Source: Lachnospiraceae bacterium
GTDB taxonomy: Bacteria; Bacillota; Clostridia; Lachnospirales; Lachnospiraceae
Direction: 5' to 3'
Assembly (NCBI GenBank): GCA_022768465.1
Contig: JALELZ010000005.1
Coordinates: 62,001 to 126,000, forward strand
DNA: 64,000 bases
Shown here: piece after piece, positions 9,999 through 64,000 of the stretch
Layout of the letters: every line of letters begins with the position of its first letter
Position numbering within the stretch: position 1 is the stretch's first letter
Translations under genes and position numbers: made by a program
The notes under the pieces: generated by a model
Told to the model about the DNA's origin: nothing
What the model saw: the letters and a program-made list of their open reading frames with translations, nothing else
The model's database searches: none

Positions 9999-10169
9999 AT
10001 CCTATGCCTTTTTATCTAACATATTCTTAAGATGAGCATTATACGACCTGCTCACACGAACTTCAATCTCAAATACATGAAAAGTCTAATAAAAGGCAAG
10101 TTTAAATTCAATAAACTATCCTTACAATAGAATTATATATTTTTTAAAAATAATGAACTTTTTAAAAAT

Positions 10170-10814
10170 TTATATATATGCCTCTATGCCGGCAGCTGAA
10201 AATGACTCAAGCAGCTTATGAAGAAGTTCTCCGGTCATACCCCAAATAACTCCGAATTCTGTTTCATAAAAGAAATAGCGCTTTTTGATATCAGCCCACG
10301 GATAGTCTCTTCCGTTAGGAATAAGCTCATAATGAAAACCCTCCTGAGGTGTCTGCACAAATACCGTATCGCTCACCTTCGGTTCTATCTTCATCAGTTC
10401 CTTTATAGATATGCTGAATACACTCGCCACCTCAGCCTCGGAATATGTACCTTCATACTCATCTATGCGTCCAAGATACGCAAAGACATCCGCGCCTGCA
10501 GGCCCTATCATTTTAAACATAGGGGCGATTATATCTGCTTTGCCGTCTGCAAGACAAAGCTCTTCCATAGTTTCTCTCAGCGCTGCATCGGCAGGGCTTT
10601 CTCCGGTTTCTATCCTTCCTCCCGGAAAGCATATCTCACCGCCCTGTTCTATATTTCTTGATCTCACCTCAAAAAGCAATGACAGCTCACCGTCCTTTTT
10701 TACAAGCGGCATAAGCACTGATGCCTTTATGGCTTTAAGCGGCATAATACGTTCAAATCTGTGATTTGAAAATTCGTTGCTTATCATTTCAATGAGACTG
10801 TTATCATTATTCAT
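10170..10814 (-). CDS. Nudix hydrolase, CoA pyrophosphatase-like
   Basis: A 214-residue Nudix protein resembling NudL/YeaB CoA diphosphatases, which cut CoA to phosphopantetheine and 3',5'-ADP. Evidence is the block PLVKKDGELSLLFEVRS, the Nudix box GGRIETGESPADAALRETMEEL, and the downstream PAGADVFAYLGRIDEYEGTYSEAEV, which fits the CoA-specific region. Transcribed alone on the minus strand, with a GAGGAAC ribosome binding site 9 bases ahead of the ATG. A substrate other than CoA cannot be excluded. Bases 9999-10169 and 10815-10937 hold no further gene. Confidence 0.85.
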   Translation of the reverse strand: MNNDNSLIEMISNEFSNHRFERIMPLKAIKASVLMPLVKKDGELSLLFEVRSRNIEQGGEICFPGGRIETGESPADAALRETMEELCLADGKADIIAPMFKMIGPAGADVFAYLGRIDEYEGTYSEAEVASVFSISIKELMKIEPKVSDTVFVQTPQEGFHYELIPNGRDYPWADIKKRYFFYETEFGVIWGMTGELLHKLLESFSAAGIEAYI

Positions 10815-10937
10815 GGTATATGTTCCTCATATTATAAAGTCTTTTTATTGATCGGCTTTTTTGATCCTGCCTATGCTTTAAGGCTCTGACATTAATGAGC
10901 AGACTTTTCAGTCAAATCTTCTGACTCTGTCAGCTGC

Positions 10938-11225
10938 TCATGCATCCAAAAGTCTGCTGCTTACGGAAGATTTTCTGAATGCAATAATATCGGCTCCGTT
11001 TCTGTCATTTACAGAGCTCCTGTTCATCCTGTTTGATATCCTGCCATCCTCCGGCTCATCAGCGCAGCACCAGCCGTTTGCATAGCCGTAAAGTGCTGTA
11101 AATATTCCGCTGATAATACATATAATAATAGGAAGCGGTGTGAGATCCGTATCAAGAAAGCATGCCGAAATAATAAAAATCGTTCCCATAACTGCTGCAA
11201 AACTTTTAAGACATATCTTTTTCAT
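10938..11225 (-). CDS. Small membrane protein, unknown function
   Basis: I do not recognise this 95-residue protein. It begins MKKICLKSFAAVMGTIFII, has two hydrophobic segments (about 8-25 and 30-50) and a polar C-terminus with a CC pair (NGWCCADEPEDG). An upstream ATG (11255) is in frame but the start at 11225 follows GAAAGGGG and gives a normal membrane-insertion N-terminus. An inverted repeat TGAGCAG/CTGCTCA around the stop codon (about 10897-10940) has no U tract. Probably real, since it has a start signal and the gap around it is otherwise empty. Confidence 0.5.
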   Translation of the reverse strand: MKKICLKSFAAVMGTIFIISACFLDTDLTPLPIIICIISGIFTALYGYANGWCCADEPEDGRISNRMNRSSVNDRNGADIIAFRKSSVSSRLLDA

Positions 11226-11387
11226 ATATATAACCCCTTTCAGAACAATCATCAATTTTCTTACTTAGGATTATATCGGTTGTGTTGTCCATTATTCAGG
11301 ACTCGCAGTGCGATTCCATGGATTTTTGTAAAATTATGAATAATTCAAGAAATCTAACTGTTATTTATTGCAAAGCCCCCTGGAATT

Positions 11388-11416
11388 GTTATTATATTTA
11401 ATAAATACTATAATCC
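11388..11416 (+). promoter_or_regulatory. Sigma-A type promoter upstream of the DUF975 gene
   Basis: TTGTTA (11388-11393), a 17-base spacer and TATAAT (11411-11416). It lies in a 353-base gap (11226-11578) with no gene and would give a leader of about 155 bases before the DUF975 start codon. I see no recognised riboswitch in that leader. Confidence 0.6.
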
Positions 11417-11578
11417 ATATTATACTATGGTTACCGTGATTTGCAGACAGCAAATTCATGTTATGAGCTGTATAAATATGTAGTTTTATGCTTGGGAACT
11501 CATGCATTAACAGTTTTTTTATACAGATATTTTAATCATTTTCACCCTAAGGTTCACTTTATTTAAGGAGGTATTTAT

Positions 11579-59443: not shown

Positions 59444-60202
59444 ATGATAAAGATAGCTGTATACGGTAAGGGCGGCATCGGAAAATCCACAGTCACCGCC
59501 AACCTGTCCGCTGCGTTTGCCAGCATGGGGAAAAAAGTAATCCAGATAGGCTGTGACCCTAAGGCTGACTCGACCATCAACCTTCTCGGAGGAAAGCCTT
59601 TGCTCCCTGTCATGAACTATATGCGTGATATGGAAAAGGATCCGGAGACGCTTGAGGATATCTCAAAAACCGGCTTCGGAAACATTCTGTGCATAGAGAC
59701 CGGAGGTCCTACACCGGGGCTTGGCTGTGCAGGAAGAGGCATCATCGCTACCTTCCAGCTGCTTGAAGAGCTTGAGCTTTTCGAAACCTACAAGCCTGAT
59801 ATCGTCATGTACGATGTCCTCGGAGATGTAGTCTGCGGCGGCTTTGCTGCGCCTATCAGAGAAGGCTATGCCGAGGAGGTCCTTATCGTGACTTCCGGCG
59901 AAAAGATGGCGCTCTATGCTGCCAACAATATATATCAGGCTGTCAAAAACTTTGAGGACCGCAGCTATGCAAGAGTCAGAGGTATTATCCTCAATCACAG
60001 AAATGTTGAAAATGAAAATGAAAAGGTAGCTGCATTCGCAGATGCAAACGGACTTGAGATAGTCGGCGAGATCCCGCGCAGCAATGATATTAATTTTTAT
60101 GAGGAACATGGAATGACCGTTATTGAAGGAGATATTACTTTACCTGTCAGTCAGACCTTTATTGATCTTGCCGCAAAGCTTTTAAAGGAACACGAAGAGT
60201 AA
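59444..60202 (+). CDS. Nitrogenase Fe-protein (NifH) homologue
   Basis: A 252-residue ATP-dependent reductase component. P-loop [14 protein letters not shown], switch I region [17 protein letters not shown], and both cysteines that bridge the [4Fe-4S] cluster of the dimer: [10 protein letters not shown] (about Cys95) and [13 protein letters not shown] (about Cys131). The Arg after the first Cys, the site of ADP-ribosylation in NifH, is present. It is slightly shorter than NifH (about 270-290), the size of nitrogenase-like Fe proteins. It precedes a component-1-like fusion by 28 bases. Nothing here shows N2 fixation. Confidence 0.93.
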
Positions 60203-60230
60203 TTTATAAGAGGACAGACATTCTAATTTT

Positions 60231-62909
60231 ATGACAGATACAAGCTTAGAAAAACTTAATCCGTTCAGCCGTACCGTATCGGAGCTTTCCGATTCCGGCA
60301 TCAAAGAGCTGCCGTGGCAGTTCATTTCAGGGGAGCATCTTATATACAGCTCTCCTGCTGCCCTTTCATTTAATTCACCCGGTGCCGAAGGCTTCGGTGT
60401 TAAGCGTGCCGCTCTATCCATACCGGATTCGGTGCTTCTTTTGGTGTCTCCGGGCTGCTGCGGTCGCAATACCTCAGGTATAGGCGACATTCCGCAGTAC
60501 AAAAACCGCTTTTTCTTCATGAACATGGATGAGGCCGATATAGTTACCGGCAAGCATCTTAAAAAGGTTCCTGATGCCGTGTCCAATGTTGTTAATGAAT
60601 ATCTTCAAAGGACAGGCAAAAAGCCTTCAGTAGTAATGATCTGCATTACCTGTGTGGACGCATTGCTCGGAACAGACATGGAGAGAGTGTGCAGAAAGGC
60701 AGAGGAACAGGCAGGACTTCCTGTTCGCCCAAGCTATATGTATGCCCTTACAAGAGAAGGCCGCAAGCCGCCTATGATCCATGTGAGACAGTCTCTTTAT
60801 TCACTGCTTGAAAAACGCAGAAAGCGCAGTACAAGCGTTAACCTTATAGGTCATTTTGCACCGCTTATCGATGACTGCGAGCTCTATGATATGCTGCACA
60901 GCATGGGAGTTAAAAGCATCCGTGAGCTTTCCCGCTGCAAAAGCTATGATGAATTCATGCTCATGGCAGAGGCCAATTTTAATCTTGTGCTGGATGCGGA
61001 GGCGCGTCCGGCTGCTGCCGACATGGAAAAAGCTCTCGGCATTCCGTATATAGAGCTTAAGAGACTTTATCAGACTGACAAGATTGAACGCCAGTATATG
61101 GCTTTGGGACAGGCTCTCGGAGTAACTATTGACGTAAGCAAGGCTAAGGCCGAAGCACTTTCAGCAATTTCAGCATTCAAGAAAGCGCTCGAAGAGCACG
61201 GCTATTCGCTTTCTTCCGGACAGCAGCCTGTTTTTGCCATAGGTGAATTTTTAAATGCCGACCCGTTTGAGCTTTCACTTTCTCTTATACATGAAGGCTT
61301 TGCCGTATCAGAGATATTCGGCACTATCACTGCCGACAACTTTATATACATCGAAAAGCTTGCTGAGCTTTCCCCTGATATAAGAGTATATTCAAATCTT
61401 GATCCGGGAATGATACATTACCGTGAAAAAGAGCATGCAAAACCTGATTTTGTTATAGGCCGAGACGCCGCATACTATCATCCTGATGCCGTAAGCGTGC
61501 AGTGGCGCGAGGATATTCAACCATTTGGCTTTGCCGGAGTAAAAAAGCTGTATCGTGAGCTTCTTTCTGCTTTTGAAGCATCGCTTTCAACAGTGAAAGA
61601 CGATACTAAGTCACACTGTGATGCCGCAGCCGTATCTGCAGTTTCCGCCGGAAATGTTGTTCCTGATATCATGCTGTCTCATATAAAATCAGCTGAAAAT
61701 GCTTCCAGCCATATTTCAGCATCAACAAATGCCGCCTGCACCTTAAAGCATTTACGCGGCTACCGCAGCTATCTTCCTCCGTTTGCGCCTGATGCCTCGG
61801 GAGCATCTTCCGTGCTCTATTCGCTCGGGGGAATCATAGTTATATGTGACGCCGGCGGCTGTGCCGGAAACATCTGCGGCTTTGACGAGCCAAGATGGCT
61901 CAGCGAAAAAAGTGCAATCTACAGCGCAGGCTTAAGAGACATGGACGCTATCCTGGGCCGTGATGACAGACTTGTTGAAAAGCTTAAGCGCACAGCTGAA
62001 AGTGTCGGCAATGTACCTTTTGCCGCAACTATAGGTACACCTGTTCCTGCAGTGATCGCAACGGATTACCACGCACTTAAGCACATGAGCGAAAGACGTA
62101 CAGGACTTACGACCTTAAGCATAGATACCTCAGGCATGGAGCTTTATGATACCGGTGCCTCAAAGGCATACCTTGAGCTTTTCAGTGAATTCACCAAGGA
62201 CTCTCAGGTTTATGATAAAGCTGTAATAGCTAAGGACGAAGCAGCAAAAACTGCCTATAACGGTTACACAGGCATATTAGGTGCAAATCCTATAGATATG
62301 AGCAGCCGTGAAATAAAGAGCTTTTTCTCTGACGCACTTTCAAACGACAAAATATGCTGTTTTTCTATGGGAGACGGGCTTGATGCAGTACGTGCTGCAG
62401 GCAATATGGCTGAAAACATTGTCGTATCGCCTTCCGGAATAAAAGCTGCTGAGTTTATCAAAAGAAAATTCGGCGTACCTTATAAAATCAGCTTCCCTGG
62501 TGCAGAGCATATTTTAAAGGCAGCTGTTAATGCTTTAGGACTTTTTAACACCAAAGATACTGAAGTTAAAGTTAAAGCTACTGCTGACACAGCTTTCTAT
62601 AAATGCTTTGATAATAAGAACGTACTTATTATTCACCAGGATGTGCTCTCCTGCGCTCTTAAAGAGCTTATTAACGATCACTCAAATGCAAAGGTCACTA
62701 CAGCCTGCTGGTTTAAGACAGTGTCCGATAAAACCATCAAGCTTCATGATGAGCATGACCTTTCAGAGCTTATCAAAAAGCTCAATCCGGATCTTATCAT
62801 CGGAGACATAGATATGAAGCCGCTTTGTGACAGTACCGGCATTGAGGTAAGCTTTATTGATCTTCCTCATTTTGCAGTCTCCGGAAGACTCATGGAGGAG
62901 CTGTTATGA
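60231..62909 (+). CDS. Fused nitrogenase component-1-like protein
   Basis: An 892-residue protein with two halves that each follow the component-1 (NifD/K, BchN, CfbD) plan. First half (to about 430): VLLLVSPGCCGRNTSG (Cys76/77), VVMICITCVDALLGTDMERV (Cys138, Cys141). Second half (from about 510): GGIIVICDAGGCAGNICGF (Cys539, 544, 549) and PFAATIGTPVPAVIATDYHAL. The usual first and third cysteines are partly absent: the FNSPGAEG and APDASGA sites have no Cys, and the second-half CxxxIG site has Thr. Cluster type is thus unusual. Start ATG has a distant AGAGGAC; no alternative start exists before an in-frame stop. Confidence 0.85.
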   Translation: MTDTSLEKLNPFSRTVSELSDSGIKELPWQFISGEHLIYSSPAALSFNSPGAEGFGVKRAALSIPDSVLLLVSPGCCGRNTSGIGDIPQYKNRFFFMNMDEADIVTGKHLKKVPDAVSNVVNEYLQRTGKKPSVVMICITCVDALLGTDMERVCRKAEEQAGLPVRPSYMYALTREGRKPPMIHVRQSLYSLLEKRRKRSTSVNLIGHFAPLIDDCELYDMLHSMGVKSIRELSRCKSYDEFMLMAEANFNLVLDAEARPAAADMEKALGIPYIELKRLYQTDKIERQYMALGQALGVTIDVSKAKAEALSAISAFKKALEEHGYSLSSGQQPVFAIGEFLNADPFELSLSLIHEGFAVSEIFGTITADNFIYIEKLAELSPDIRVYSNLDPGMIHYREKEHAKPDFVIGRDAAYYHPDAVSVQWREDIQPFGFAGVKKLYRELLSAFEASLSTVKDDTKSHCDAAAVSAVSAGNVVPDIMLSHIKSAENASSHISASTNAACTLKHLRGYRSYLPPFAPDASGASSVLYSLGGIIVICDAGGCAGNICGFDEPRWLSEKSAIYSAGLRDMDAILGRDDRLVEKLKRTAESVGNVPFAATIGTPVPAVIATDYHALKHMSERRTGLTTLSIDTSGMELYDTGASKAYLELFSEFTKDSQVYDKAVIAKDEAAKTAYNGYTGILGANPIDMSSREIKSFFSDALSNDKICCFSMGDGLDAVRAAGNMAENIVVSPSGIKAAEFIKRKFGVPYKISFPGAEHILKAAVNALGLFNTKDTEVKVKATADTAFYKCFDNKNVLIIHQDVLSCALKELINDHSNAKVTTACWFKTVSDKTIKLHDEHDLSELIKKLNPDLIIGDIDMKPLCDSTGIEVSFIDLPHFAVSGRLMEELL

Positions 62910-64000
62910 CAGCCGAAGTCATTACCAGAAGGATAAGAGTATACGGAATAGTTCAGGGCGTAGGCTTTAGACCCACAGTAGCCCGTCATGCCAATGTCTC
63001 CGGCATAAATGGCACTGTCATCAATAAGGGCTCATACGTTGAGATAATAGCTCAGGGCTCTGAAAAAGCATGTGACTTATTTCTGGAGCTGCTAAAAAAA
63101 GAGCCTCCAATAAGAGCTTATATTATTAAGATAAGTGTACAGGAGCTTGGAAAATTCAAATTTGAAGATAACGCTAATGAAGCCGCCGCTTCTGAAGAAA
63201 GCAACAACCTTCCGCTTTATAACAGCTTCACGATAGAAGAAAGTGAGCATACAGACGGAGATATTTACATCTCCCCTGATATCGCCATATGTGATGACTG
63301 CAAGCGTGAGCTTTACGACAAAAATAACCGCAGATATCTGCATCCTTTTATAAACTGCACTAACTGCGGGCCACGTATGACCATACTTGATGCACTTCCT
63401 TATGACAGAGAGCGTACTAGCATGAAGGTCTTTCCTATGTGCCCGGAATGCTCAAAGGAATACCATTCCCGCGGCAACAGGCGCTTTGATGCTCAGCCGG
63501 TCTGCTGCAATAACTGCGGCCCTGAGGTATATATCCTTAATAAGGAAAGCGGAAAGCCTGATGAGGCTCTTACAGGCAGTGCAGCTATAACGTATTCAAG
63601 ACGTATCATAAGTAACGGCGGTATCATTGCCGTAAAGGGCATAGGCGGCTTTCATCTTTGCTGTGATGCTTCTAATGAAAATGCCGTAAAACTGCTGAGA
63701 GAAAGAAAGCATCGGCCTTCAAAGCCCTTTGCTGTAATGATGCATGATATCAATACCGTTAAACGCGAATGTGTGGTTACCGACAATGAAGCTAAGGAGC
63801 TTGAAGGTCACAGAAAGCCTATAGTTCTCCTTGAAGGCAGAAAAGATGCACATTGCCGCATTGCTTCGTCGGTTGCTCCCGGCAATCCAAAGCTTGGAGT
63901 CATGCTTCCGTATGCACCTGTACAGCTGCTGCTTTTTGATTATAATGACGGTATAGCAATGCCTGACTGTCTCGTTATGACAAGTGCCAATGAATCCGGC
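62906..64000 (+). CDS. hypF: Carbamoyltransferase HypF, 5' part
   Basis: HypF uses carbamoyl phosphate to make the carbamoyl group that HypE turns into the cyanide ligands of [NiFe]-hydrogenase. The visible 365 residues have an acylphosphatase domain (RRIRVYGIVQGVGFRPTVARH, INGTVINKGS), two zinc-finger-like sets (ICDDCKRELYD...INCTNCGPRMTI and MCPECSKEYHS...VCCNNCGPEV) and the first part of the YrdC-like domain (GGIIAVKGIGGFHLCCDA). The carbamoyltransferase domain lies beyond the window. It starts inside the stop codon of the fusion gene (ATGA) with GGAGGAG upstream, so translation is coupled. Confidence 0.95.
   Translation, partial: MTAEVITRRIRVYGIVQGVGFRPTVARHANVSGINGTVINKGSYVEIIAQGSEKACDLFLELLKKEPPIRAYIIKISVQELGKFKFEDNANEAAASEESNNLPLYNSFTIEESEHTDGDIYISPDIAICDDCKRELYDKNNRRYLHPFINCTNCGPRMTILDALPYDRERTSMKVFPMCPECSKEYHSRGNRRFDAQPVCCNNCGPEVYILNKESGKPDEALTGSAAITYSRRIISNGGIIAVKGIGGFHLCCDASNENAVKLLRERKHRPSKPFAVMMHDINTVKRECVVTDNEAKELEGHRKPIVLLEGRKDAHCRIASSVAPGNPKLGVMLPYAPVQLLLFDYNDGIAMPDCLVMTSANESG

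Follow-up and report, generated by a model that had tools for sequence, protein, structure and literature searches.

The analysed window is a stretch of 64,000 nucleotides (G000:C29:62001-126000) from a Lachnospiraceae genome of 1.86 Mb that is 96% complete (G000, the source genome). Three genes follow each other closely at the end of the window: nifH1, which encodes an Fe-protein homologue; fusN-fusC, in which an alpha and a beta component-1-like protein are fused; and hypF (Table 1). The spacing of 28 bp between nifH1 and fusN-fusC, and the overlap of 4 bp (ATGA) between fusN-fusC and hypF, agree with the description in the first-pass annotation, which was made from the letters of the window. 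To extend the locus, as that annotation had proposed, we read on along the contig past the window end (adding 59999 to an L002 position gives the window numbering). The complete hypF occupies L002:2907-5519 (62906-65518 in window numbering) and encodes 870 aa, with 669 bits against TIGR00143 (cut-off 466).

The extended operon has the order nifH1 - fusN::fusC - hypF - hypC - hypD - hypE - TM1266 - C1A - C1B - hydF - hydE. The whole run is on one strand, with small gaps except for the one that separates hypE from the TM1266 gene (about 320 bp), and the order is identical in G012, a genome of the same genus. All operon genes were read; hydG is absent from the operon, and no NifB was found among its genes. 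It should be noted that hydE, hydF, TM1266 and the second component-1 pair were initially missed because they are located past position 64000. Their presence, together with the absence of hydG, makes the H-cluster of [FeFe]-hydrogenase the most likely metal centre. The original idea of a cyanide-bearing metal centre is retained as the best reading; however, this centre is most likely the H-cluster, not one of the nitrogenase-like enzyme itself and not mainly that of [NiFe]-hydrogenase.

Table 1. Positions of the operon genes in the source genome and of related features at other loci (positions without a locus prefix are those of the window)
Feature	Position	Strand	Length	Profile match
NifH1, Fe-protein homologue	59444-60202	+	252 aa	Pfam Fer4_NifH, 291 bits
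fusN-fusC, fused alpha + beta component-1-like protein	60231-62909	+	892 aa	Pfam Oxidored_nitro, 2 stretches
hypF, truncated at window end	62906-64000	+		Pfam HypF finger / acylphosphatase / YrdC
hypC	L002:5562-5783	+	73 aa	
hypD	L002:5783-6826	+	347 aa	
hypE	L002:6866-7885	+	339 aa	
TM1266-family [FeFe]-hydrogenase regulator	L002:8209-8472	+	87 aa	115 bits, cut-off 61
C1A, component-1-like	L002:8477-10060	+	527 aa	
C1B, component-1-like	L002: about 10051-11469	+	about 472 aa	
hydF	L002:11480-12739	+	419 aa	TIGR03918, 523 bits
hydE	L002:12770-13897	+	375 aa	TIGR03956, 554 bits
ATPases with C-terminal TM1266 [FeFe]-hydrogenase regulator domain	L083 6692-7786; L174 11266-12321; L111 6516-7883; others			
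Third-clade loci	L175; L176; L177; L052; L053; L192 8001-14297 (Treponema saccharophilum plasmid pTS1)			
Tandem HypB-like GTPase genes	L111; L118; L121; L127; L134; L136 (first 4.3 kb)			

The coupling between the nitrogenase-like genes and hypF is not a chance one, since every one of the 42 fusC-type proteins in our tree is encoded at a locus that has hyp genes; nearly all of these loci were retrieved via similarity to C1B and not via hyp. The link noticed in the window is thus real and conserved, as opposed to a hypF that opens an unrelated hyp operon beside a fusion gene occurring mostly without it. The fusion in a single ORF is itself a local variant: the form of fus was readable in 41 loci, with one ORF in 12 and a separate fusC ORF in 29. 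NifH1 proteins from fus/Hyp loci form a single clade (n = 25, support 1.0). The Walker A motif and both [4Fe-4S] cysteines are retained in NifH1 of G000 and, in the NifH set, in 81/82 and 79/82 proteins, respectively, which places the set in the NifH superfamily. The nitrogenase-like proteins were found to have the component-1 fold. AlphaFold modelled the fused protein with only moderate confidence (pLDDT 70.8, pTM 0.56, 11 sequences), with a low-confidence linker at residues about 456-521; therefore, we claim no cluster geometry. The model of C1A is better (86.5 and 0.86).

Catalytic motifs are intact in nearly all maturation proteins across the loci: the C-terminal PRIC of HypE in 46/47, those of HypD in 45/45 and HypC in 44/45, HHYAH of HypF in 39/43, the HydF signature in 35/35 and CX3CX2C of HydE in 40/40 proteins, 30 of the latter being from C1 loci. 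In the gap that separates hypE from the TM1266 gene, a 51-base repeat occurs three times at intervals of 77-78 bases (L002:7969-8174; window numbering 67968-68173). A search with its 26-base core, allowing up to three mismatches, found no further copies in the window or in L003.

Distribution of the cluster and replacement of HydG

Genomes of other species were scanned with C1B. At least 597 stretches matched and at least 564 were confirmed; 80 loci were kept among the matches listed, so that locus frequencies in this set are not unbiased. Together with L002, L049, L051, L052 and L053, which stem from G000 and its relatives, they make up a set of 85 loci. The cluster-bearing loci include Blautia, Eubacterium ramulus, Roseburia faecis, Coprococcus catus, Megasphaera, Clostridium muellerianum, Coriobacteriaceae and Mogibacterium. 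Among the 85 listed loci, 52 have the Hyp form and 22 have an ABC importer, none have both, and 11, some of them short contigs, have neither; in these ORF-based tallies, longer overlapping ORFs hide some genes. HydE, HydF or TM1266 is nearby in 68/85 loci (some of the remaining 17 are short contigs), whereas HydG was found at none of the 85. Five loci carry an AspA-like gene, and that of L102 exceeds the cut-off of the NCBIfam aspartate ammonia-lyase subfamily. AspA has been tied to H-cluster synthesis, where it feeds nitrogen to the H-cluster bridge in vitro (PMC11736057).

We then considered 53 genomes with a C1 pair, that is, G000, G012 and G005 plus 50 of the 80 kept loci, picked for longer contigs and isolates. 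HydA is present in all 53, and HydG exceeds the cut-off in two, both Intestinibacter bartlettii; a third genome, G104, has two fragments that fit a broken HydG. All three belong to the importer form, which comprises 13 of the 53 genomes, whereas no HydG was found in the 40 Hyp-form genomes. The exclusion of HydG is thus weaker in the importer form (2/13 with HydG and 1/13 with fragments) than in the Hyp form. With HydE-HydF-HydG maturation, the cluster shares HydE, HydF and TM1266 with intact motifs, HydA and, at a few loci, the AspA-like neighbour; it differs in that 50/53 genomes lack HydG and have HypCDEF or the ABC importer, with nitrogenase-like reductases, instead.

A similar pattern is seen in a class-wide draw of 196 genomes (completeness filter 90), where HydE was found in 134 and HydG over the cut-off in 126. 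The C1B profile was matched at E up to 1e-10 by 30 of these genomes; 14 matches above 300 bits were counted, and 16 at 73 bits or less were dropped. By this count, C1B is present in 10/13 genomes with HydE and without HydG, versus 3/121 genomes with both, the two groups being divided by eye from lists, with a second check of the division. The corresponding Fisher p value of 2e-10 is indicative only, because the genomes are not independent and kinship was left uncorrected. The ten genomes span six families; within genus g86, C1 without HydG is seen in four species and HydG without C1 in a fifth. The other four of the 14 are three genomes with both HydE and HydG (G172, G226 and G240) and G234, with neither over the thresholds. 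Reading of the loci of G172, G226 and G234 placed them in a separate clade that has no hyd genes in the vicinity. Incompleteness of genomes was rejected as the cause of the absence of HydG, since the single-contig cluster genomes G215 (2.8 Mb) and G062 (L065, NZ_LT635539.1, 3.3 Mb) also have no HydG over the cut-off.

When 60 HydE proteins (22 from HydG genomes, 32 from C1 genomes and six from genomes with neither) were placed in one tree, the groups interleaved, and one alignment column separates HydE of HydG genomes from HydE of C1 genomes. A special HydE in C1 genomes was therefore rejected, and the HydE substrate is probably of the same kind in both routes. The simplest reading of this tree would be that the source of the substrate was swapped several times.

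It should be noted that C1 is not the sole way to be without HydG. Three of the 13 class genomes with HydE and no HydG also have no C1 (G052, G166 and G293). Among 61 relatives of the source genome, five (G006, G019, G035, G043 and G052) combine the presence of HydF with the absence of both HydG and any match to the fused protein; in that search, HydE was judged solely via weak matches to the HydG model. Loci of such genomes with HydE and with neither HydG nor C1 (G006, G019, G035, G052, G166 and G293) are L054, L055, L056, L058, L210 and L211. As a separate observation, no HydF match was found in 31 of 56 relatives with HydA, some of which are incomplete genomes, so that HydA alone is no proof of a matured H-cluster. 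The HydA motifs are intact in both HydF-less relatives that were read, and many of the 31 (G002, G020 and others; L189, L190) have no match to the HydG model, which also catches HydE.

Hydrogenases of the source genome

G000 encodes one PF02906 protein, a monomeric [FeFe]-hydrogenase (TIGR04105, 606 bits, cut-off 450), in which the three H-cluster motifs, in the patterns that we take to be theirs, are intact. HydE and HydF have one match over the cut-off each, both inside this cluster; thus, the only HydE and HydF found share an operon with HypCDEF and the nitrogenase-like genes. The profile search of the genome found no HydG over the cut-off. The highest score against the HydG model, 182 bits (cut-off 312), belongs to a ThiH-like gene, which adjoins genes judged by eye to be thiG and thiF.

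Conceivably, HydG is simply dispensable: HydE and HydF would use free CO and cyanide, or would be supplied by ThiH, and the cluster would be employed otherwise. The genomes that lack both HydG and C1 fit this explanation, and HydF matured with HydE in the absence of HydG is reported to activate HydA to about 1% (PMC9431212). However, activation by free ligands is very weak, and the cluster is repeatedly present precisely where HydG is missing. ThiH was rejected as a stand-in for HydG, since 24/53 C1-pair genomes have no match of HydG or ThiH strength and the ThiH-like gene of G000 sits with the thiG/thiF-like genes. We consider dispensability extremely unlikely.

A second hydrogenase is encoded at L169 5612-8401 (G000:C30), an operon with a group-4-like [NiFe] large subunit that ends in DPCFSC. 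The part that was read has hypA, hypB and hypC alongside and no hypDEF. A comparable operon is present in G012, and in both genomes the [NiFe] genes adjoin genes that by eye resemble those for Mrp antiporter and complex-I subunits. The earlier suggestion that the nitrogenase-like genes are expressed with hydrogenase maturation is borne out in part in G000 by this operon. These operons would also suit a conventional explanation, in which HypFCDE of the cluster matures the [NiFe]-hydrogenase of the same genome and the proximity of the nitrogenase-like and hyd genes reflects chance or shared regulation. Conversely, a [NiFe] large-subunit match is present in only 7/40 Hyp-form genomes (G000, G012 and five others) and absent from the other 33, and the linkage to hydE, hydF and TM1266 recurs in other families. 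Searches of the 85 listed loci with G000 proteins (tblastn, E up to 1e-15) found neither hypA nor a [NiFe] large subunit, and found HypB-like genes at six loci, none of the Hyp form. The cluster thus shares HypF, HypC, HypD and HypE, with their catalytic motifs, with HypABCDEF maturation of [NiFe]-hydrogenases, and differs in lacking hypA and the large subunit and in that the hyp genes of G000 run together with hydE and hydF. An explanation by [NiFe] maturation only was accordingly demoted and appears very unlikely. In the seven genomes with a large-subunit match, HypDEF of the cluster may nevertheless have two clients. C1 loci resembling that of Mogibacterium, which are mostly of the importer form, were also seen to have two tandem HypB-like GTPase genes upstream (Table 1).

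Comparison with nitrogenase-like systems

The NifEN scaffold is among the best sequence-profile matches of the component-1-like proteins. Shared with it are the component-1 fold and the alpha/beta pair, at times in one chain as in GmNifEN (9i0g); however, the L-cluster ligand cysteine of NifE is unconserved here, and the partner genes are hyp and hyd genes. The cofactor-ligand cysteine, which we take to be Cys275 of NifD and Cys250 of NifE, is replaced by L, I, Y or T in 9/10 sequences (4 fusN, 4 C1A and 2 of the third clade), with C in C1A of L098 only. In 10/10 sequences, L or V takes the place of the first alpha P-cluster cysteine, and the other two cysteines are kept. Methylthio-alkane reductase MarHDK is likewise nitrogenase-like, with NifH and two component-1 chains, but our proteins lack the cofactor cysteine as well as the first of the alpha P-cluster cysteines, and no MarB was found among the G000 operon genes. 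The P-cluster cysteines of the MarD alpha subunit are given as Cys66, 91 and 158 (PMC12552129). Membership in NifEN or MAR was rejected because of the absent ligand cysteines. DPOR (BchLNB) and CfbCD differ in that the G000 operon has no tetrapyrrole gene among its genes and that the proteins studied here form clades of their own. No CfbD chain is among the fold-search matches listed, a result that excludes no likeness.

The two component-1-like pairs adjoin ligand-making genes, and no substrate is known for them. They might therefore be the client, with Hyp, HydE and HydF building an organometallic centre for them and HydA being matured otherwise. This seems very improbable: the cysteine that would hold a cofactor is unconserved in fusN and C1A, while C1B has S there in the profile alignment; HydE is not distinct from ordinary HydE; and HydA accompanies the C1 pair in every one of the 53 genomes, HydG in hardly any.

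Proposed maturation route

In the established pathway, the Fe(CO)2(CN) unit is the product of the radical SAM tyrosine lyase HydG; HydE processes this unit, and assembly and delivery of the two-iron subcluster are the task of HydF. We consider it likely, on genomic evidence, that the cluster is a HydG-independent system for [FeFe]-hydrogenase maturation, where HydE and HydF would be kept and HydG replaced. The observed basis consists of gene order, co-occurrence, the replacement of HydG, intact active-site motifs and the fold, whereas all of the chemistry and the order of steps are inferred.

In the Hyp form, cyanide is probably supplied by HypCDEF: HypF and HypE would produce it from carbamoyl phosphate and transfer it to iron held by HypC-HypD. 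NifH1 and fusN-fusC, as an ATP-driven low-potential reductase, might perform a reductive step on the HypC-HypD scaffold or on a released iron complex, and this step could plausibly form the CO ligand or ligands from CO2. CO formation by a nitrogenase-like reductase is a tentative assignment and somewhat less likely than not. NifH2 with C1A-C1B would carry out a second reduction or a hand-over, yielding an Fe-CO-CN unit that HydE could accept; in G000, where the cluster has one nifH, a shared NifH1 would replace NifH2. Finally, HydF would complete the subcluster and load HydA. HypCD is known to build Fe(CN)2CO and not Fe(CO)2CN, so that extra chemistry must be assumed.

The importer form and the third clade

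In importer-form genomes, the ABC importer would stand in for the Hyp/fus part. It replaces hyp and fus at the 22 importer-form loci, two of which (L052 and L053) belong to the third clade. According to a profile test on G005, the importer is of the Peripla_BP_2/FecCD type, a class whose substrates are iron complexes, haem or cobalamin. Among the matches listed, the importer ATPase ends in a TM1266 domain at 13/20 loci of the Hyd-linked clade versus 0/6 of the other clade; four of these 20 loci (L137, L174, L178 and L179) were assigned to the Hyd-linked clade from their best BLAST matches and neighbouring genes instead of from the tree. Pfam confirms the domain in 4/4 Hyd-linked ATPases tested and detects none in the one tested from the other clade. 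The fusion ties the importer to [FeFe]-hydrogenase regulation.

Since the importer replaces a putative module for making iron-cyanide-carbonyl, the boldest reading is that a precursor is imported. There would then be two interchangeable HydG-free feeds of HydE: HypCDEF with a CO-forming nitrogenase-like reductase, which make an Fe-CO-CN block, or TM1266-gated ABC import from neighbours. H-cluster precursors would be a shared good in gut communities, with TM1266 as the sensor, and many gut "nifH" genes would serve hydrogen metabolism and not nitrogen fixation. We regard this scenario as speculative and rather doubtful. Loci of the third clade, the sister of fusC, have the arrangement NifH-C1-C1-ABC importer without hyd genes nearby (Table 1).

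Implications

According to current teaching, all CO and cyanide of [FeFe]-hydrogenases come from HydG. Yet Di Leonardo et al. 2022 (PMC9431212) report eight clostridial acetogens with HydE and HydF, of which only three have HydG; five have HypCDEF and lack HypAB. The authors offer no straightforward explanation for the missing hydG; their guesses include the use of free ligands and an atypical radical SAM protein in the role of HydG, which in most of those acetogens might be a HydG that had been overlooked (PMC9431212). The assignment of HydG in C. autoethanogenum, from which an electron-bifurcating [FeFe]-hydrogenase complex was isolated (PMC6288185), is described there as differing between annotations (PMC9431212). 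The locus tags of C. ljungdahlii given in the same source indicate consecutive hypF, C, D and E (PMC9431212), which matches the C. muellerianum locus. In our search set, C1 was found in 4/7 genomes of the C. muellerianum genus, with HydG tested in C. muellerianum alone. Among the open-licence PMC papers listed by our searches, no title or abstract linking nitrogenase-like genes to [FeFe] maturation was found.

A HydG-free route would join the Hyp, Hyd and nitrogenase-like metallocofactor systems, which were thought to be separate, and would give a role to two new clades of the nitrogenase superfamily. It could explain those acetogens that have an [FeFe]-hydrogenase, hydE, hydF and orphan hypCDEF, and no recognised hydG (PMC9431212). 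The finding also bears on the origin of CO in anaerobic HypCD chemistry, and it concerns gut fermenters, since loci of Roseburia, Blautia, Eubacterium, Coprococcus and Megasphaera carry the cluster. Many anaerobes, including common gut bacteria, have an [FeFe]-hydrogenase without HydG, and the cluster described here probably does the job of HydG in a new way.
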